Virus record (IMG/VR): IMGVR_UViG_3300025133_000717
Coordinates: 1 to 21,001 of that record
DNA from: a virus
Strand: one strand, 5' to 3'
Length of the DNA stretch: 21,001 bases
Each line of letters starts with the position of its first letter. Positions within the stretch are counted from its first letter, which is position 1. This document shows, one piece after another, positions 1 through 17,733 of this stretch. Below the pieces are notes generated by a model that was not told the DNA's origin, searched no databases, and saw only the letters and a program-made list of their open reading frames with translations. A program made the position numbers and the translations under genes.

Positions 1-344
1 ACTCCCTTATCTTCCTCTCCTCTTACGAGAACAGGTGCGAAGAAACGCTGACGGGCACAAAGCTTTTTAGCGAGCTTGATGCTCTCATCTGTCTTTTCAC
101 GCCAGAGAGCGCGGACGAAATCGTCAAGAGGATCATCCTCTAAGAAATTCTTCTTCGGGCTTAGAAAACCCGCGTTGTTGCCGAGGTTGTAGTGGAACCA
201 AAAATCCTTGAACGGATCGCCGTCCTTGGTTGGTACGATACGAATGGTAGATTCGCCCTCTGGTGGTTTCCAGAAGCCGGCTTTACCGCCTCTATTTTTT
301 ACTGCTTCGAGCTTTGCTCGCATTTTTGCTAAGTCTATAGCCAT
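1..344 (-). CDS. gp32: ssDNA-binding protein, T4 gp32-like (partial, N-terminal 114 residues)
   Basis: Partial gene whose 3' part lies beyond position 1. The reading frame opens at ATG 344 after a ribosome-binding site (AAAGGAA) about 8 nt upstream. The N-terminus is basic (residues 5-22), as in gp32 proteins, where this part mediates cooperative binding. It is followed by FWKPPEGESTIRIVPTKDGD (24-43) and by RQRFFAPVLVRGEEDKG (98-114), which match the OB-fold core of T4-like gp32 proteins. Known family role: coats single-stranded DNA during replication, recombination and repair, and represses its own translation. In T4 the core binds zinc through a His and three Cys. Here the corresponding stretch NFLEDDPLDDFV (66-77) has no CxxC pair, so zinc binding is probably lost. 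The last gene of the window in transcription order, it follows the tubulin-like gene by 77 nt. Confidence 0.88.
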   Translation of the reverse strand, partial: MAIDLAKMRAKLEAVKNRGGKAGFWKPPEGESTIRIVPTKDGDPFKDFWFHYNLGNNAGFLSPKKNFLEDDPLDDFVRALWREKTDESIKLAKKLCARQRFFAPVLVRGEEDKG

Positions 345-362: not shown

Positions 363-399
363 TTTGGGTTAAAGTCATAACAGCAAATATTCTGTTATG
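363..399 (-). promoter_or_regulatory. Stem-loop in the gp32 mRNA leader, possible pseudoknot
   Basis: A perfect 8-bp inverted repeat, CATAACAG (399-392) and CTGTTATG (383-376) read on the minus strand, encloses the AU-rich loop AATATTTG. The loop's TTTG can pair with CAAA at 366-363, just downstream, which would form an H-type pseudoknot. The stretch from there to the start codon is A-rich and looks unstructured. T4 gene 32 is known to be autoregulated through a leader pseudoknot and an unstructured binding tract. That this is an analogue is inference. It is not a convincing intrinsic terminator for the gene upstream, because no U tract follows. Confidence 0.5.
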
Positions 400-421: not shown

Positions 422-1249
422 CTATTGGATAATAGAAGTGTAGTTGAGTATGTAACAGTAATCCTGTTGGTAGTTTGTCGGGAATACTCCGAAAGATACT
501 TTCAAATCTTCTGTCTCAGATTGCTCCTTGATGGTTGAAACGATTTTCTCTCTCAAGTCTCCCTCAGTCTTTAGTCTTTCCTCATTGATACTATAAATAT
601 AACACTTTTCCTTGGTTCTGTCAAGGGAAAAAAACGATTTTTCTTCATTTCCTTCGATGTCTGAAATGCCGAATGTTGCTATTCGGCTTGCTTCTGTTGG
701 ATCCTCTATCTTGCCCATAACTGGGTCTGAATTCTTAAAAACATTTATCATGTGAATTGTTGAAACAAGCAATTCGTTTATCTTACTATTATAACCTATT
801 ATTGGAACATTGCCAAGTATATTTTCTAAATTTGTGTTCGAAACGAGATAAAGCATCCTGAGAAGCCCAGAACGAGCGTATTGCTGTAGAATGCCGTATG
901 TTGCTTTCTCGTGTAGTGTCTTGTTTTTTGAGAGAAGAGAAGTGTCCGGCCTTATGTAAAGCACACTTAGCTCGCATTTATCCTTTATTTGCTCCATTAT
1001 TCTCAGGCACATCGCAGAAATGTGTCCCGAACCGCCAACTATAAAGAGTGTTTCGCCCTTAATTCCTCTAAAGAAAGTCTTCATTGAAGGGGTGTTTTTC
1101 TCGTATTCTTCGGGGCCCTGTTGGGGCTTGACATCATAGCATCTTTTGCCTTCTAAGCCGACATCGATCTTGTAAGTCTTGTATTGAGGGTACTCTGAAA
1201 GCATGTCTGCGATGTTGCATCCTGCTTGCCCTAAGCCGACTATATTCAA
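422..1249 (-). CDS. FtsZ/tubulin-superfamily GTPase-like protein, compact phage form
   Basis: Predicted cytoskeletal GTPase of 275 aa. The N-terminus MNIVGLGQAGCNIADML (1-17) matches strand 1 and the T1 nucleotide loop of FtsZ and especially archaeal CetZ (GxGQAG). VGGSGHISA (71-79) sits where the GGGTGSG phosphate loop (T4) belongs. A helix at about 156-170 is followed by a loop with D183 and E186, placed like the catalytic NxDxxD of the T7 loop. Residues 215-272 show the alternation expected of a short C-terminal FtsZ subdomain, ending SFGVF(x)nYILNYTS. At 275 aa it is shorter than FtsZ or PhuZ (just over 300) and has no polymer-regulating tail. The start is TTG at 1249 with AGAGG 6 nt upstream; an in-frame stop lies five codons before it. 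Gene follows the 850-aa gene by 38 nt. Possible roles are positioning of phage DNA, as for PhuZ/TubZ, or interference with host FtsZ. Fold assignment is fairly sure, function is open. Confidence 0.72.
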   Translation of the reverse strand: MNIVGLGQAGCNIADMLSEYPQYKTYKIDVGLEGKRCYDVKPQQGPEEYEKNTPSMKTFFRGIKGETLFIVGGSGHISAMCLRIMEQIKDKCELSVLYIRPDTSLLSKNKTLHEKATYGILQQYARSGLLRMLYLVSNTNLENILGNVPIIGYNSKINELLVSTIHMINVFKNSDPVMGKIEDPTEASRIATFGISDIEGNEEKSFFSLDRTKEKCYIYSINEERLKTEGDLREKIVSTIKEQSETEDLKVSFGVFPTNYQQDYCYILNYTSIIQ

Positions 1250-1287: not shown

Positions 1288-3840
1288 CTATTGACCGTCG
1301 TCGGAGACATCCTTGCTTTTCGGGGGAGGATCTTCCTGTTCTACTTCGATGTCTAGGCTTTTCGCCGCTTTGTCGGCCATGGCCGCTAGTTCTTGAGCAA
1401 GTTCGGTTGCAACTTGTCTTTCAAGGTCCAGTTTGTTCCCGTCACTTTTGGGGAGAATGACCCCAATGTCCTCGTCCTTGTCATTACTGACATCTCTTTC
1501 CTGGTTGGTTTTAATCGTAGGTAAATCCGTACCAACGATAGCTTTCTGGATAGCCTTGACGGACGCTTCGCCGGCCGCTATCTCGTCCTTGGATGTCTGG
1601 TTGGCGGCGCCGGCGGAATAGATGAGGGTGGCCGGTAAGAAGCGCTTAATAATATATTTGGCGACACCCCCCCAGAAAATCCCCTTATTTTTGCCATAAA
1701 GCGCATTTTTCCAGTTTGCGACGCTGTGGGTTCTCGATGGGTTGGGCGCCCATCTTTCGTCGAAATAATCTTTAACTATTTTCTTTATGGGGGGGCGCTT
1801 TGGTGTCGGCATGGATGTCACATTACGCGGGAAAATCGGGTTGGTCAAGCTTGGGGCAACATCTGGTCTGGCGAAGTAACCACCCCAGGATCCTCCTGAA
1901 AGCGGATTCATATCATCGGCAAGCTTGAGACTTTTGAGCGCGTCCGATGCATCAACAGGCACTACGAATCTAGCGCGTTGGGCGCGGTCTTGCAAAGCCA
2001 TGAAATATTTCTCATTTTTTATAAGCGCGTCTTCGACATCATCAATGCTTCTTCCGGCGACGCCGGCGGCGTTAGGCTCTAGGCCTTTTCTTATGGTTCT
2101 CTGAGCTGCGAGAAATTCTTGGGCCAAAGCGAGATCTAAATGAAAAGGTGCGCGGTCGATGCCATGGACGGAGCTTGGGATCACCTGTATCGCGTCATCG
2201 AGGAATGTACGGGGTACGCCGGCCATTGTGCTGTACGCTATGTGAATCTCAACCTCGGCCGCGGTTTGTGGGCCTGCTTTAACTTGTGCCGGAGTCAATC
2301 TGGACGCCGCTTCGTACACCTCGGGCGCTATGTTCTCCACCGAGTTAAAAGCGCCTTTAGCTCCGCCGACGGTTATGACATCATCAACAGTTTTGGTGGC
2401 TGCTTCGGTCGTGGTACCGCCTATGCGACTGAGGGCCCTCAACCAGTTGCCCTCTTGCAATAAGTCTAAGTCTTCTGTGAACATACTATCGAGAAAGGCA
2501 TCCAACTCTTCCTCGTCGGCTGCAATTGCAACTTCCTGTTCGAACAGCCTCCATCCTTCCATTATAAGTTTCATATTAGTGTTTTTATTGTCCATTTTGT
2601 TTTCCTTCAACTGATTAAGCTTGAGTAATTCGTCATCTGTTTTTGTAGGTTCTATTTTGTTTATCTCTGTCGGTTCAATGTCAGTTGTCGTGGTTTCCTG
2701 TGCCTGCGTCGTGGGCGCAAACAGAATGGAATCTTCATAGCCAACATTCCCGAACTCATCAACTTCTGCGTCGGGAGAAAAGGGAATCGGTGGCAGTTTC
2801 TCTGCCGCCGGCTCGGCGACAGGTTCGGGGAGGAACCAGGGTAACTCCGAAGATTCCGAGTCGGTGGTGTCGGTGGTGTCGGTGGTGTCTACGCCGGCGT
2901 CTTCTGCTGCGGCTTTTATTTCGGCTACCGTATTTTGGAATTCCTCGTTTTCCTTTACCATTTCTGCTACAAGGTCCGCCCCCTCTTCCAAGTTTTTTCT
3001 TGAAAGGTTTTCCTCCCAAGCAGCCCCCGATGCTTCGGCGATTCTTTTATCGTTGAACATTTGGGCAAACAGGACGACAGTATCCGCCAATTGAATCCGG
3101 TTCGCCCATTTGGTTGATTTCTCGGCCATGCCACCGGCCTTCGCCGCCTGCAGCGTCTGAAAGGTTTTCATAATTTTATCATGCCTTTTAAATGCGCTCA
3201 TGGTGTTGGCCGCTCTAGACGCTATGGTTCCTGCCTTGAAGTAGCCTGCCGCGGTTGAGGTGGCCATCTCGCCGAATGGCCCATCTGCCGGCACAAACGC
3301 AAGAATTCCGGAGAACGTCATCAGTGCGGCGTAGGCCCAGTCCGCTGGTCGTGCTGGATCAAAAAGAACATGGGACCACTTGGCATCCAGCATGTCCTGT
3401 ATTTCATCGACACTCCTTATCATGCCTCTGTGTTGATCAAGAATCCACTGATCCGGATCTTCGCCAGTCTTCTCCCAGTGCTTATTTGCATCTTCAATTT
3501 GTTTTTCATACACAGCGCGCATTGGATCGCTTTTAGCAATCATATAACCAAATTTGCGAGATGGCGTTTGACCTGGTGCATGGGGAGGATTCCAACCAGT
3601 CTTAAGTGCGGCGCCGACATCGACAGCTATATCCCTTATTCCCTCAACGGCGCCTAGTACTTTGTCGAATGCTGCGCTTTGCCCGGCTGTAGCTGCCGGC
3701 AGTTCTTGGACAGTCCACATCGTCTGATCTGGGATCATTTCAACCAATATTTGATTTTCAGAATTCTTAGTGCGCTGCTCGCTCAAGACCTCTTTCTCGT
3801 ATCCTCTCCAGTTCTCCATTAACTTTTTCATATCGCTCAT
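1288..3840 (-). CDS. Double-unit structural/internal virion protein candidate (850 aa)
   Basis: Not assigned to a named family. It looks like two proteins joined head to tail. The motif MKKLMENWRGYEKEV (4-18) recurs as MKLIMEGWRLFEQEV (423-437), with 9 of 15 residues identical. In T4, short N-terminal signals beginning MKTYQEF direct internal proteins into the prohead and are cut by the gp21 protease at (L/I)xE sites. Both copies here offer such sites (LME, LSE, LFE), so a head-internal role is a reasonable inference. Other features: a hydrophobic segment near 167-185, an acidic Thr/Pro/Glu-rich linker (about 300-410) with a DTT repeat, a second hydrophobic stretch near 740-765, and an acidic tail. 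Start ATG 3840 follows AGGAG. A good internal ribosome-binding site precedes Met416, so a separate 435-aa product is possible. Confidence 0.6.
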   Translation of the reverse strand: MSDMKKLMENWRGYEKEVLSEQRTKNSENQILVEMIPDQTMWTVQELPAATAGQSAAFDKVLGAVEGIRDIAVDVGAALKTGWNPPHAPGQTPSRKFGYMIAKSDPMRAVYEKQIEDANKHWEKTGEDPDQWILDQHRGMIRSVDEIQDMLDAKWSHVLFDPARPADWAYAALMTFSGILAFVPADGPFGEMATSTAAGYFKAGTIASRAANTMSAFKRHDKIMKTFQTLQAAKAGGMAEKSTKWANRIQLADTVVLFAQMFNDKRIAEASGAAWEENLSRKNLEEGADLVAEMVKENEEFQNTVAEIKAAAEDAGVDTTDTTDTTDSESSELPWFLPEPVAEPAAEKLPPIPFSPDAEVDEFGNVGYEDSILFAPTTQAQETTTTDIEPTEINKIEPTKTDDELLKLNQLKENKMDNKNTNMKLIMEGWRLFEQEVAIAADEEELDAFLDSMFTEDLDLLQEGNWLRALSRIGGTTTEAATKTVDDVITVGGAKGAFNSVENIAPEVYEAASRLTPAQVKAGPQTAAEVEIHIAYSTMAGVPRTFLDDAIQVIPSSVHGIDRAPFHLDLALAQEFLAAQRTIRKGLEPNAAGVAGRSIDDVEDALIKNEKYFMALQDRAQRARFVVPVDASDALKSLKLADDMNPLSGGSWGGYFARPDVAPSLTNPIFPRNVTSMPTPKRPPIKKIVKDYFDERWAPNPSRTHSVANWKNALYGKNKGIFWGGVAKYIIKRFLPATLIYSAGAANQTSKDEIAAGEASVKAIQKAIVGTDLPTIKTNQERDVSNDKDEDIGVILPKSDGNKLDLERQVATELAQELAAMADKAAKSLDIEVEQEDPPPKSKDVSDDGQ
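2593..2607 (-). promoter_or_regulatory. Internal ribosome-binding site and start codon inside the 850-aa gene
   Basis: On the minus strand AAGGAA (2607-2602) is followed after 6 nt by ATG (2595-2593), in frame with the surrounding gene (Met416). Seven residues later comes the second copy of the MKxxMExWR motif. The site would yield a 435-aa protein covering 1288-2595. It suggests that the gene was once two genes, or still makes two products. Confidence 0.5.
2861..2887 (-). repeat. Three tandem 9-bp repeats encoding Asp-Thr-Thr
   Basis: Three exact copies of TCGGTGGTG (plus-strand reading) lie in the linker of the 850-aa gene and encode a DTT-DTT-DTT run between its two units. Such in-frame short repeats expand and contract by slippage and mark a flexible, unconstrained linker. 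Confidence 0.85.
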
Positions 3841-14382: not shown

Positions 14383-17300
14383 CTAATCCGCGAAAGAAGC
14401 TCCTGTTGATGCTATGATGAAATCAAGAGCGATGTATTCAATTGCTCTTTGTGGCTTGAGATATATTTGAGCATACATGATATTATTGTCTATCTCGTGT
14501 GCCGTGGTTGTAGTCTCATCAAGGACAACCCTATAGTCGGACAAGCCATAGCGTGCCTGAATGTCAGAGAGGAAAGGATTAACTTCTCCTGTGAACCTAG
14601 CCCATGTGACTGAGTTGTTCTGGTCGAACAATATTGTCGCGGCGATCCTAGAAACCTCTTTCTTGATATATATCATAAGCCTACGAACATTGATGCGATC
14701 TAAAGCAGAGCCAGCAGCGCCGACGCCCCCTCCTTCCCAGAGAGTCTTCTGTCCGTAGACGACGATGCCCTCGGATGGGAATTTTGCAATTGGATTAATG
14801 TCATGATCATACAACTTGTCTCTGTCTGAGGATGTCACTCTTTCTACAACATCCGTTACTGTGAGGCCTGCGCCGCCTGATTTTAGGCCGCCGCGGTTGA
14901 AACCAGCTGGAGCGTACCAAAGCTCAGATAGTGCTTCGGAATTCCCGAATGTGCCAAGCGCTATGACAGAAGGCGGAACATACAACAACCTACTTGTTTT
15001 TGGATCCTCAACCTGTACCCATGGATAATAGGCGCAGGCATAGCTAGTATCGATAGTCCTGGCCGCTTTATTGGATGTGGTGGTGGACACTGAACCCAAA
15101 CGGTCCGAGAAAGTATCCTTGTTTTCCGTCGACGGCACATAGCCGCCGTCCAAATCGATGATGGCCAGCGCATCTGCTCTGGTTTCGCACGTAGAAATCA
15201 TCTTGTTAGTAATGTCGTTCTGAGTAATACCTGGTATCGTCATAAGGTTGTATTCCAAAACTTCTGCATCGGCAATCGAATCTAGCGCCTTATCAATACT
15301 ATTGTAAGAATAGCTAGTAAGGTTTGTTGGAGATGACCACTGAGAATTCCTGAAAGGCTCTTTCTCTGTGATGTCAAGTCCATCGTGTCCGCCGTACATA
15401 GGTGCCCAGAACTGTCGTAGCCCCTCGTCGAGCACCATGGCATAATCATCATTAACAGCGCTAATAGAGGTTCCTGCTGCTCTAGAGCCAGATAGGTCAT
15501 AGAACGGACCAACTCCGGAAGCCCCTGAAAGGTTATCAAGCGAGAATACCCACTGATACTCTGTACCAGCTGGCGCGCCGGTGAGGGTGTCAAATCTACC
15601 CCTTGCAGTGCTGCCGAACGGCAAGCCGATATTGTATTCGCCATATCCTTGATCGGGGGAAGGGGAAGCGGCTGAAATGCGATGGTCTACTCCAAAATAG
15701 GCAGCTGCTCCCAGTCCCGAAAAGCCCTCATCAGAGTTTCCCCTGACTGCAGTGGCCGGGAAGACCCAAGAGCCGGAGAAGTCGGGTCCGCTGGAGGCTC
15801 TTAGGAAGATGGCGCCGCTAGTATGACTAGCGTGGTGTTGCGCAATATTTCCCGTGCCCCAAAGGACATAACCATTTGTCGGGGTGCCGGCGAGAACTGT
15901 GGCAGTCGTTGTTTGTCCTTGCAAATTACTGGTTCTGGACCAGTCGCCGCCAGAGAAATTACCAAATGTAGCGTCTGTGCCTTTGGCGGTGGGTGTTATA
16001 GTGGTATTTCCTGCGGCACCTGCTACATCTTGTGTAAGTGTTACTACCGCATCTGCGCTTGTAGCTGTTATAGTAGCTGCACAAGTGCTAGTTGCGTCAT
16101 TTATAGCGGCGGCAATCTTTACAGCAGCAGCGTTGTTGCCTGCGGATCCGCCAGCAGCTGCTGCTCCTGCCAACCCTACTTTATTATCAGCAACTAAATC
16201 ATCGCCCGTTTCAATAGTAAATGTATGTGCAGTTCCTGCGGTATCTGTTATAATAAATGTCTGCTCATCGGTAAAATGAGTTACTTCGTCTACTGTTATC
16301 GTTGCGGTTGCTGCGACGACCCCGGGGTCGTCGCTGGCAAACCAAGAAAACCCTACAGATCTGATTGGGCCGGTTACGCCAAACGGCACAGCGCTTTGGT
16401 TAAAAGAAATCTTATCATTCATCTCAATGCGAACATATTGGGACTTATTCCCATATACGACATCTGCATCGTCGGGACCTTCGGCTGTATGCTTCTTGTT
16501 GGCATAACTCCAAGTATAAAGCTTGTTCCCTATCTTTTTCTCAACATAATCTTTGGAATTCTTATTAAGCGTACACCCAGTAAATCTCTCCAAGGCGGTC
16601 GAATCAACAGTAGTCGACTTTGCATCAGCAGGGTATACTGCCACGGTGAAAGTACCCCATGAAGTAGAGGTTGTTGCCGCCCGTATGTCCTCAATGGCGA
16701 TTTTAATGTTTGAGTTTGGCCATGCGCCGTAATCTAGAGCGTGGAACTTAAACAGTCTCTGCGGCCCTGAAGACTCGGCGATAAATGACCCTGTTGGGCC
16801 AAAATCTTGTGAAAAGAACCAGCCTGTTTGTGAGTTCGTAGCCGGGGCTTTTCGATCATGATATCCGGCTGCAGATGCACTCATTAGGGGGAGGATCATT
16901 CCCCATTGCTCTCCGGCGCCGCCGGTGCAATAGGTTTGAGTCGCCCTTTCAAATGTCTCGCCAAGCCAATATTTGTGCTCATAGTCGGAGAGAGACGAAG
17001 TATCTGTAATTTCTGTGTTTGTCATGGCAGGAGAAGTGTTGAACATGTTTCTTGACCAGCTTGTCGCAGAACTGTCACCAAAATTTGCACTTCCGAATTC
17101 CTTAGCTAGGGTCTTGCCATTCCATAAACTGAGCTTGAACACATTTGCTGCTGTACTACCATAAGACTTAATAAGGCAGCCGGCAGCGCTTACTTGGTTG
17201 CCATCAACATCAGCACCCGATAAAGTAAGAACGGATCCGCTGTCGACATACCATATGGCGGACAGCGTACCGGTGTTGTGTGAGGTCGCAGAGCCAGAAT

Positions 17301-17733
17301 CAATAATAAAGAGCCCAAAAGCACCGCCGTTGGTGTTGTTGGTGCTCGATGAGACGGGATCCTTAGTTGTAGTCCACCCTGCTAGGCCGGATGTGCCGGC
17401 GGAAGAGTGCTCCTCACCGAGAAGACGGACAATAGTTGCCGGAGCGGTGCCTGCATTCAGCCATGCTTTTGCGGCATATGAGGCGTATGTCGGGCCGTCC
17501 GGGATACCAGCTCTCCACTTATCGGTGGTGGTGTCCTCACCTGGGACGGGATCTCCAAAAATATTAATAAACTCAGAATAAGAATTAACTTGGACCGGTA
17601 TCATGCCCGGCCCCTTTGATGTTCTTCCTATAATAACGGGCCCGATGATTGGAGGAGCCTCAAAGGTGAGAGACTCGTCTATTTCACTAAGAAATATTCC
17701 AGGCGAGATGAATGTAAATTTGGATGCTGACAT
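14383..17733 (-). CDS. gp18: Contractile tail sheath protein, T4 gp18-like, with large insertions
   Basis: The outer contractile layer of the tail. The N-terminus SPGIFLSEIDESLT (10-23) and GPVIIGRTSKGPG (31-43) are typical, as is the last 100 residues: RRLMIYIKKEVSRIAATILF, VTWARFTGEVNPFLSDIQAR, then LSDYRVVLDETT and YAQIYLKPQRAIEYIALDFI. These form the wedge domain and the linking arms of sheath proteins. At 1116 aa it is far longer than T4 gp18 (659). Extra material includes an Ala/Thr-rich beta segment (about 472-594) containing ITATSADAVVTLTQDVAGAA and GNTTITPT, a pattern I recall from surface domains of other environmental phage structural proteins. Such insertions should decorate the outside of the sheath. 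ATG 17733 follows AAGGAGA. Flanked on both sides by shared-motif copies, so probably a single-gene unit. Confidence 0.93.
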   Translation of the reverse strand: MSASKFTFISPGIFLSEIDESLTFEAPPIIGPVIIGRTSKGPGMIPVQVNSYSEFINIFGDPVPGEDTTTDKWRAGIPDGPTYASYAAKAWLNAGTAPATIVRLLGEEHSSAGTSGLAGWTTTKDPVSSSTNNTNGGAFGLFIIDSGSATSHNTGTLSAIWYVDSGSVLTLSGADVDGNQVSAAGCLIKSYGSTAANVFKLSLWNGKTLAKEFGSANFGDSSATSWSRNMFNTSPAMTNTEITDTSSLSDYEHKYWLGETFERATQTYCTGGAGEQWGMILPLMSASAAGYHDRKAPATNSQTGWFFSQDFGPTGSFIAESSGPQRLFKFHALDYGAWPNSNIKIAIEDIRAATTSTSWGTFTVAVYPADAKSTTVDSTALERFTGCTLNKNSKDYVEKKIGNKLYTWSYANKKHTAEGPDDADVVYGNKSQYVRIEMNDKISFNQSAVPFGVTGPIRSVGFSWFASDDPGVVAATATITVDEVTHFTDEQTFIITDTAGTAHTFTIETGDDLVADNKVGLAGAAAAGGSAGNNAAAVKIAAAINDATSTCAATITATSADAVVTLTQDVAGAAGNTTITPTAKGTDATFGNFSGGDWSRTSNLQGQTTTATVLAGTPTNGYVLWGTGNIAQHHASHTSGAIFLRASSGPDFSGSWVFPATAVRGNSDEGFSGLGAAAYFGVDHRISAASPSPDQGYGEYNIGLPFGSTARGRFDTLTGAPAGTEYQWVFSLDNLSGASGVGPFYDLSGSRAAGTSISAVNDDYAMVLDEGLRQFWAPMYGGHDGLDITEKEPFRNSQWSSPTNLTSYSYNSIDKALDSIADAEVLEYNLMTIPGITQNDITNKMISTCETRADALAIIDLDGGYVPSTENKDTFSDRLGSVSTTTSNKAARTIDTSYACAYYPWVQVEDPKTSRLLYVPPSVIALGTFGNSEALSELWYAPAGFNRGGLKSGGAGLTVTDVVERVTSSDRDKLYDHDINPIAKFPSEGIVVYGQKTLWEGGGVGAAGSALDRINVRRLMIYIKKEVSRIAATILFDQNNSVTWARFTGEVNPFLSDIQARYGLSDYRVVLDETTTTAHEIDNNIMYAQIYLKPQRAIEYIALDFIIASTGASFAD

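Follow-up and report, generated by a model that had tools for sequence, protein, structure and literature searches.

PhuZ and TubZ are dynamic GTPases, the former from nucleus-forming jumbo phages and the latter from plasmid-like phages. In both proteins the helix H11 and a tail are present, also in the filaments (PMC5322520, PMC3678025). We analysed a stretch of 21,001 nucleotides from an IMG/VR virus record (IMGVR_UViG_3300025133_000717, positions 1 to 21,001), hereafter called the window, and found a gene for a 275-aa protein which, by structure prediction, has the full fold of tubulin and FtsZ, proteins that form filaments in cell skeletons and in cell division; the model includes the GTPase domain, the central helix H7 and the C-terminal domain (Table 1). 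As far as tested, the family of this protein is new to the record, and its function is unproven. We take it as new because no description of it was found in the open literature that we searched, the coverage of which is incomplete.

Table 1. Features of the window that bear on the tubulin-like gene and its surroundings.
Feature	Position	Strand	Evidence
gp32-like single-strand DNA-binding protein, N-terminal part, at the window edge	1..344	-	PHROG 1192, E 1.7e-13
Hairpin with 8-bp stem and 8-nt loop, conserved; between tubulin-like gene and gp32, in the leader of the latter	364..399	-	Comparison of relatives
Predicted tubulin/FtsZ-fold protein, 275 aa	422..1249	-	Translation; AF2 model (mean pLDDT 94.3, pTM 0.92); fold searches
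C-terminal domain, residues 190-275 (S7, S8, H10, S9, S10), without H11 or tail	425..682	-	Model and VIA-align
Shortened H7-S7 linker at the expected T7/H8 site	683..733	-	No helix in model; NxDxx[DE] in 0/97
Central helix H7, residues 153-172; N158 on the guanine side, H166/N169 at the opposite end	734..793	-	Model and conservation
T6 Asn138, guanine-contact position	836..838	-	99% conserved; aligns with Asn in FtsZ PND
Invariant Q122..R126 S127 where helix H5 ends, inferred to face away from the nucleotide loops	869..886	-	100% over 97 members; helix limits from model
T4 loop, residues 72-77, GGSGHI in place of GGGTG[ST]G	1019..1036	-	Canonical motif in 0/97; register from hhalign
T1 phosphate-binding loop, residues 5-10, GLGQAG	1220..1237	-	G5 and G7 100%, G10 98% over 97 members
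850-aa protein of unknown function, between polA and tubulin-like gene in the window phage	1288..3840	-	Pfam search; unmatched in fetched relatives
Compact family A DNA polymerase (PolA), 397 aa	3875..5068	-	PF00476, E 6e-11; PHROG 17

The reading frame is uninterrupted and begins with TTG, with an AGAGG ribosome-binding site upstream, while the start codon of the relatives is ATG or GTG at roughly the same place. Since at least 582 relatives were found in IMG/VR using a profile (75 loci with a single-sequence query), and 48 aligned members, 37-92% identical to the protein of the window, are of full length, we regard it as a real gene. No relative was detected by tblastn in 50,697 GenBank phage records, using three family members as queries, nor among bacteria and archaea, of which one genome per species was scanned; the searched collections possibly lack records close to that of the window. 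The protein alone gave no usable match in Pfam, PHROGs or PDB sequences, and the family does not reach the gathering cut-off of the Pfam entry PF00091 (Tubulin). Querying IMG/VR with canonical FtsZ from E. coli or with PhuZ from phiKZ returned no loci; such searches reach close relatives only.

The AlphaFold2 model, obtained from the 48-member alignment, has a pLDDT of at least 70 at every residue. Using Foldseek against the PDB, we found that the top 50 matches were all TubZ or FtsZ, with E values of about 1e-11 to 4e-10 and TM scores, normalised by query length, of 0.66-0.74. With VIA-align, CetZ gave a Z score of 25.6 over 253 residues at 2.7 A, covering residues 1-275, TubZ gave 23.8, and FtsZ and tubulin gave about 22, with essentially the whole model aligned. 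Profile comparison was weak, with P 0.0012 for PhuZ over 97 columns only, in the N-terminal part, and P 0.027 for FtsZ; with both, the motifs fell in a compatible register. In the model, strand S7 (residues 190-196) is reached from H7 via a short linker. Had the fold been of the plain Rossmann kind, lacking H7 and the C-terminal subdomain, the initial suggestion of a tubulin-like protein would have been refuted; this outcome was looked for by structure prediction and fold search and did not occur.

Conservation was counted over 97 distinct members (<85% identity), and the register of T1, T6 and the Asn of H7 rests on hhalign (weak P) together with the order of elements in the model. N158, at the start of H7, is conserved in 99% of the members; in FtsZ, the positions of N138 and N158 face the guanine. 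At the place of the T4 loop the members have GGSGHIS or similar, and neither the canonical motif nor the superfamily signature [SAG]GGTG[SAT]G occurs in any of them. The catalytic T7 motif is found in none of the members, helix H8 is absent from the model, and the chain ends directly after S10, so that H11 and the C-terminal tail are missing; relatives have a short tail at most. Our data show that the family is degenerate, having lost the T4 signature, T7/H8 and the tail and retained the T1 loop and the guanine-side Asn. The preliminary description, which was made from the sequence alone, had pointed to GLGQAGC at the N-terminus and GGSGHIS in the T4-loop place, and both are located there; the alteration of the T4 loop turned out to be real and family-wide, and the H7-like helix and the C-terminal beta subdomain it had proposed are both found in the model. 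Its reading of D183 and E186 as a T7-like acidic feature could not be upheld, as an acidic residue is present at 183 in only 43 and at 186 in only 57 of the 97 members, none has NxDxx[DE], and no H8 is predicted.

Complete invariance over the 97 members was found for Y23, Q122, R126, S127, H166 and N169, which are situated in the H1-S2 loop, at the end of H5 and in the second half of H7. The latter two regions and T1 are the best-conserved stretches of the protein. From the topology we infer that the invariant set occupies the face that is turned from the nucleotide and contacts the next subunit of a protofilament; top and bottom faces were assigned by the order of secondary structure in the known fold and not from coordinates.

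Among the described tubulins, PhuZ (phiKZ gp39 and relatives) is the nearest family by profile, and it shares with the small family the phage tubulin fold, an 'ID' after strand S2 and a non-standard T4 loop. However, the 275-aa protein is about 50 residues shorter and has no T7 Asp and no H8, and the C-terminal helix H11 with the acidic tail of PhuZ is lacking. Moreover, PhuZ comes from jumbo phages, whereas the small family belongs to a PolA cluster in T4-like phages, and there is no BLAST-level identity between the two. TubZ, known from Bacillus plasmids and phage c-st, is alike in fold (Z 22-24) and in its extrachromosomal DNA context, but the small family lacks T7/H8 and the tail and is linked to polA and gp32. 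A TubR-type partner gene beside the tubulin-like gene was not seen among the neighbouring ORFs, which were inspected by eye only. FtsZ and CetZ share the fold (Z 22-26), the T1 loop and the guanine-side Asn positions with the small family, which nevertheless is only 10-16% identical to them and has neither the T4 signature nor the catalytic T7. The best viral structural match (TMq 0.81) is A0A6J5RW92, a protein of 452 aa from an uncultured Caudovirales phage in BFVD, named 'FtsZ Cell division GTPase'; its identity to the 275-aa protein is 14%, and by E-value (4e-23) it is closer to a larger phage family, P0004. Because the T4 and T7 features that define FtsZ, TubZ and PhuZ were looked for and are absent, we place the protein, by its fold, in the tubulin/FtsZ superfamily, of which it is a degenerate representative, and not in one of these three groups.

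The larger family P0004 (for example L173, 4387-5481, minus strand) is numerous in IMG/VR and has the canonical motifs GGGGGTGS and FDSKDL. It matches an FtsZ profile with 97% probability, its model aligns to TubZ with a Z score of 33, and no relative was found in the GenBank phage records searched. One of ten long records carrying the small gene also has this second, 364-aa tubulin-like gene. When 30 records were sampled, starting from either family, 7 proved to carry both. The two are alike in their T4-like phage setting and sometimes share a genome, but only P0004 has the canonical T4 loop and FDSKDL/H8. By eye, the larger gene lies near a gp55-like sigma factor gene in T4-like phages. Stops inside some matches prompted us to consider stop-codon recoding. 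We rejected it for those sequences of the larger family that we examined, in which each stop either terminated the gene or preceded it; cases in the small family were not read separately.

The small gene is fixed in the replication cluster (polA - tubulin-like - gp32) of an uncultured clade of T4-like phages. We found gp32 downstream of it in 147 of 152 loci and the same compact PolA upstream in 127 of the 152, many of the remainder reaching the end of the contig. Seen from the side of PolA, the tubulin-like gene is on the same strand in all 77 loci that have space enough downstream, in 52 cases within 18 nt. These counts rest on the loci that matched best, and close relatives are possibly favoured. 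The link with replication, suspected in the preliminary description, is far stronger than proposed there. Its assignment to a T4-type phage stands as regards gp23 and gp32, with T4-type gp23, along with PolA, present in all ten long records (107-194 kb), but not as regards the polymerase, which is a compact PolA; no family B polymerase (PF00136) was detectable in 14 long records, eight of them among these ten. Hence, we found no candidate for the replicative polymerase other than PolA. In other large phages with a distant PolA of 400 aa, the tubulin-like gene does not adjoin where downstream ORFs were readable, and at least three of these loci have, by eye, an exonuclease-like gene in the place instead. 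T4-style late promoters (TATAAATA) were not found in a consistent position near the gene.

Further observations concern the surrounding genes. In this clade, the compact 397-aa PolA appears to have taken the place of the family B polymerase of T4 type. Loci without tight polA spacing have at least one intervening gene, which in the window encodes the 850-aa protein and elsewhere often a protein of about 100 aa starting with KLVRDRIPEII (for example L033, 4684-5004, plus strand). By eye, the latter looks MazG- or PRA-PH-like; it has no Pfam match. Apparently unrelated neighbours share an N-terminal peptide similar to MKxLMENWRxxxxE (window 1288-3840, minus strand; L020, 3854-4999; L123, 2025-4406; L137, 7850-7960), which occurs twice in the 850-aa protein, at the start and internally. 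Possibly it directs proteins to the capsid, like the tag of T4 internal proteins. The window also encodes a tail sheath protein of 1116 aa (14383-17733, minus strand), far longer than T4 gp18, and its PHROG match covers fewer than 500 positions, scattered along the whole chain.

The hairpin in the gp32 leader is found in most relatives, mostly 15-45 nt before gp32, with a loop of about RANATTWG that is often followed by ACTYTA. The stem covaries strongly (69 double-change cells; 19 in shuffles), but the rows had been picked for having it. A model of the hairpin found one copy per record, adjoining gp32 where compared, and Rfam has no family for it. Probably, it is a translational operator of gp32.

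How the tubulin-like protein acts can only be proposed. To the following explanation we give about an even chance: the protein has a tubulin fold, binds a nucleotide, probably without hydrolysing it, and acts together with the replication machinery, perhaps as a scaffold built head-to-tail. The linkage and, by prediction, the fold have been shown here, while the mechanism is inferred without any experiment. The protein would bind nucleotide, probably GTP, which would not be hydrolysed by the canonical T7 mechanism. Its conserved top and bottom faces may allow association, either head-to-tail with itself or with a partner, and it might be a scaffold, gated by nucleotide, on which the PolA/gp32 machinery of the phage is gathered or positioned, rather than a motor filament like PhuZ. 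However, position in an operon is no proof of common function, other large phages have distant relatives of this PolA without such a neighbour, and the conserved bottom face could equally serve a different partner. More tentatively, it is possible that the fold, with GTP hydrolysis lost, has become part of the viral replication machine in obligate partnership with the compact PolA and gp32, standing in some phages beside a second, canonical tubulin in a two-tubulin system.

The gene just upstream of 32 in phage T4 is that of the helicase loader 59. This parallel, the near-universal order polA - gene - gp32, often with 0-18 nt after polA, and the possible need of a compact PolA for a partner would also suit a non-polymerising replisome subunit, for instance a processivity or loading factor for PolA or gp32. 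We regard this as rather unlikely, since a pure adaptor would have no need for the observed conservation of the nucleotide loops and both longitudinal faces.

Unlikely, too, is a cytomotive filament in the manner of PhuZ and TubZ, driven by GTP and centring or segregating phage DNA, in which R126, H166 or N169, for example, would replace the T7 acids in catalysis. The same fold, the conservation of both longitudinal faces and the proximity to PhuZ by profile are what such a filament would predict, but the T4 signature and the T7 motif are gone in 97 of 97 members, H11 and the tail, both present in filaments of TubZ and PhuZ (PMC5322520, PMC3678025), are missing, and no TubR-like neighbour was seen by eye. 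It is the combined loss of T7 catalytic element, T4 signature and tail that makes a motor-like filament less likely. For filament formation or inhibition of host division, both raised in the preliminary description, there is no direct evidence.

We see equally little probability in a pseudo-tubulin that antagonises host FtsZ or the second tubulin of the phage, capping or poisoning filaments with its bottom face docked onto the nucleotide face of the target. One good face combined with a dead T7 is the expected look of a capper, and a canonical phage tubulin is also encoded in 7 of the 30 sampled records. Nevertheless, the position of the gene is tied to polA and gp32 and not to host-takeover genes, and of the ten carrier records in the first sample, nine lack the second tubulin. 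Finally, a Rossmann dinucleotide (NAD-type) enzyme or TrkA-like domain is practically ruled out and was rejected: TrkA_N is matched by 13 of 48 members (best E 8.8e-6), presumably via the common GxGxxG loop at the start, but the entire 275-aa model, including H7 and the C-terminal domain, resembles the tubulin family.

Overall, our data describe a very common protein family in environmental T4-like phages (that of the window being an ocean phage), in which the tubulin fold has been retained and the catalytic signature discarded, and which is linked to the gene of a DNA polymerase. If the protein is indeed a non-hydrolysing partner of the replication machinery, it would show that the tubulin fold is useful to a virus without canonical GTP hydrolysis. 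The family offers a direct way to ask whether phages of ordinary size organise their DNA replication with a protein of cytoskeletal type.
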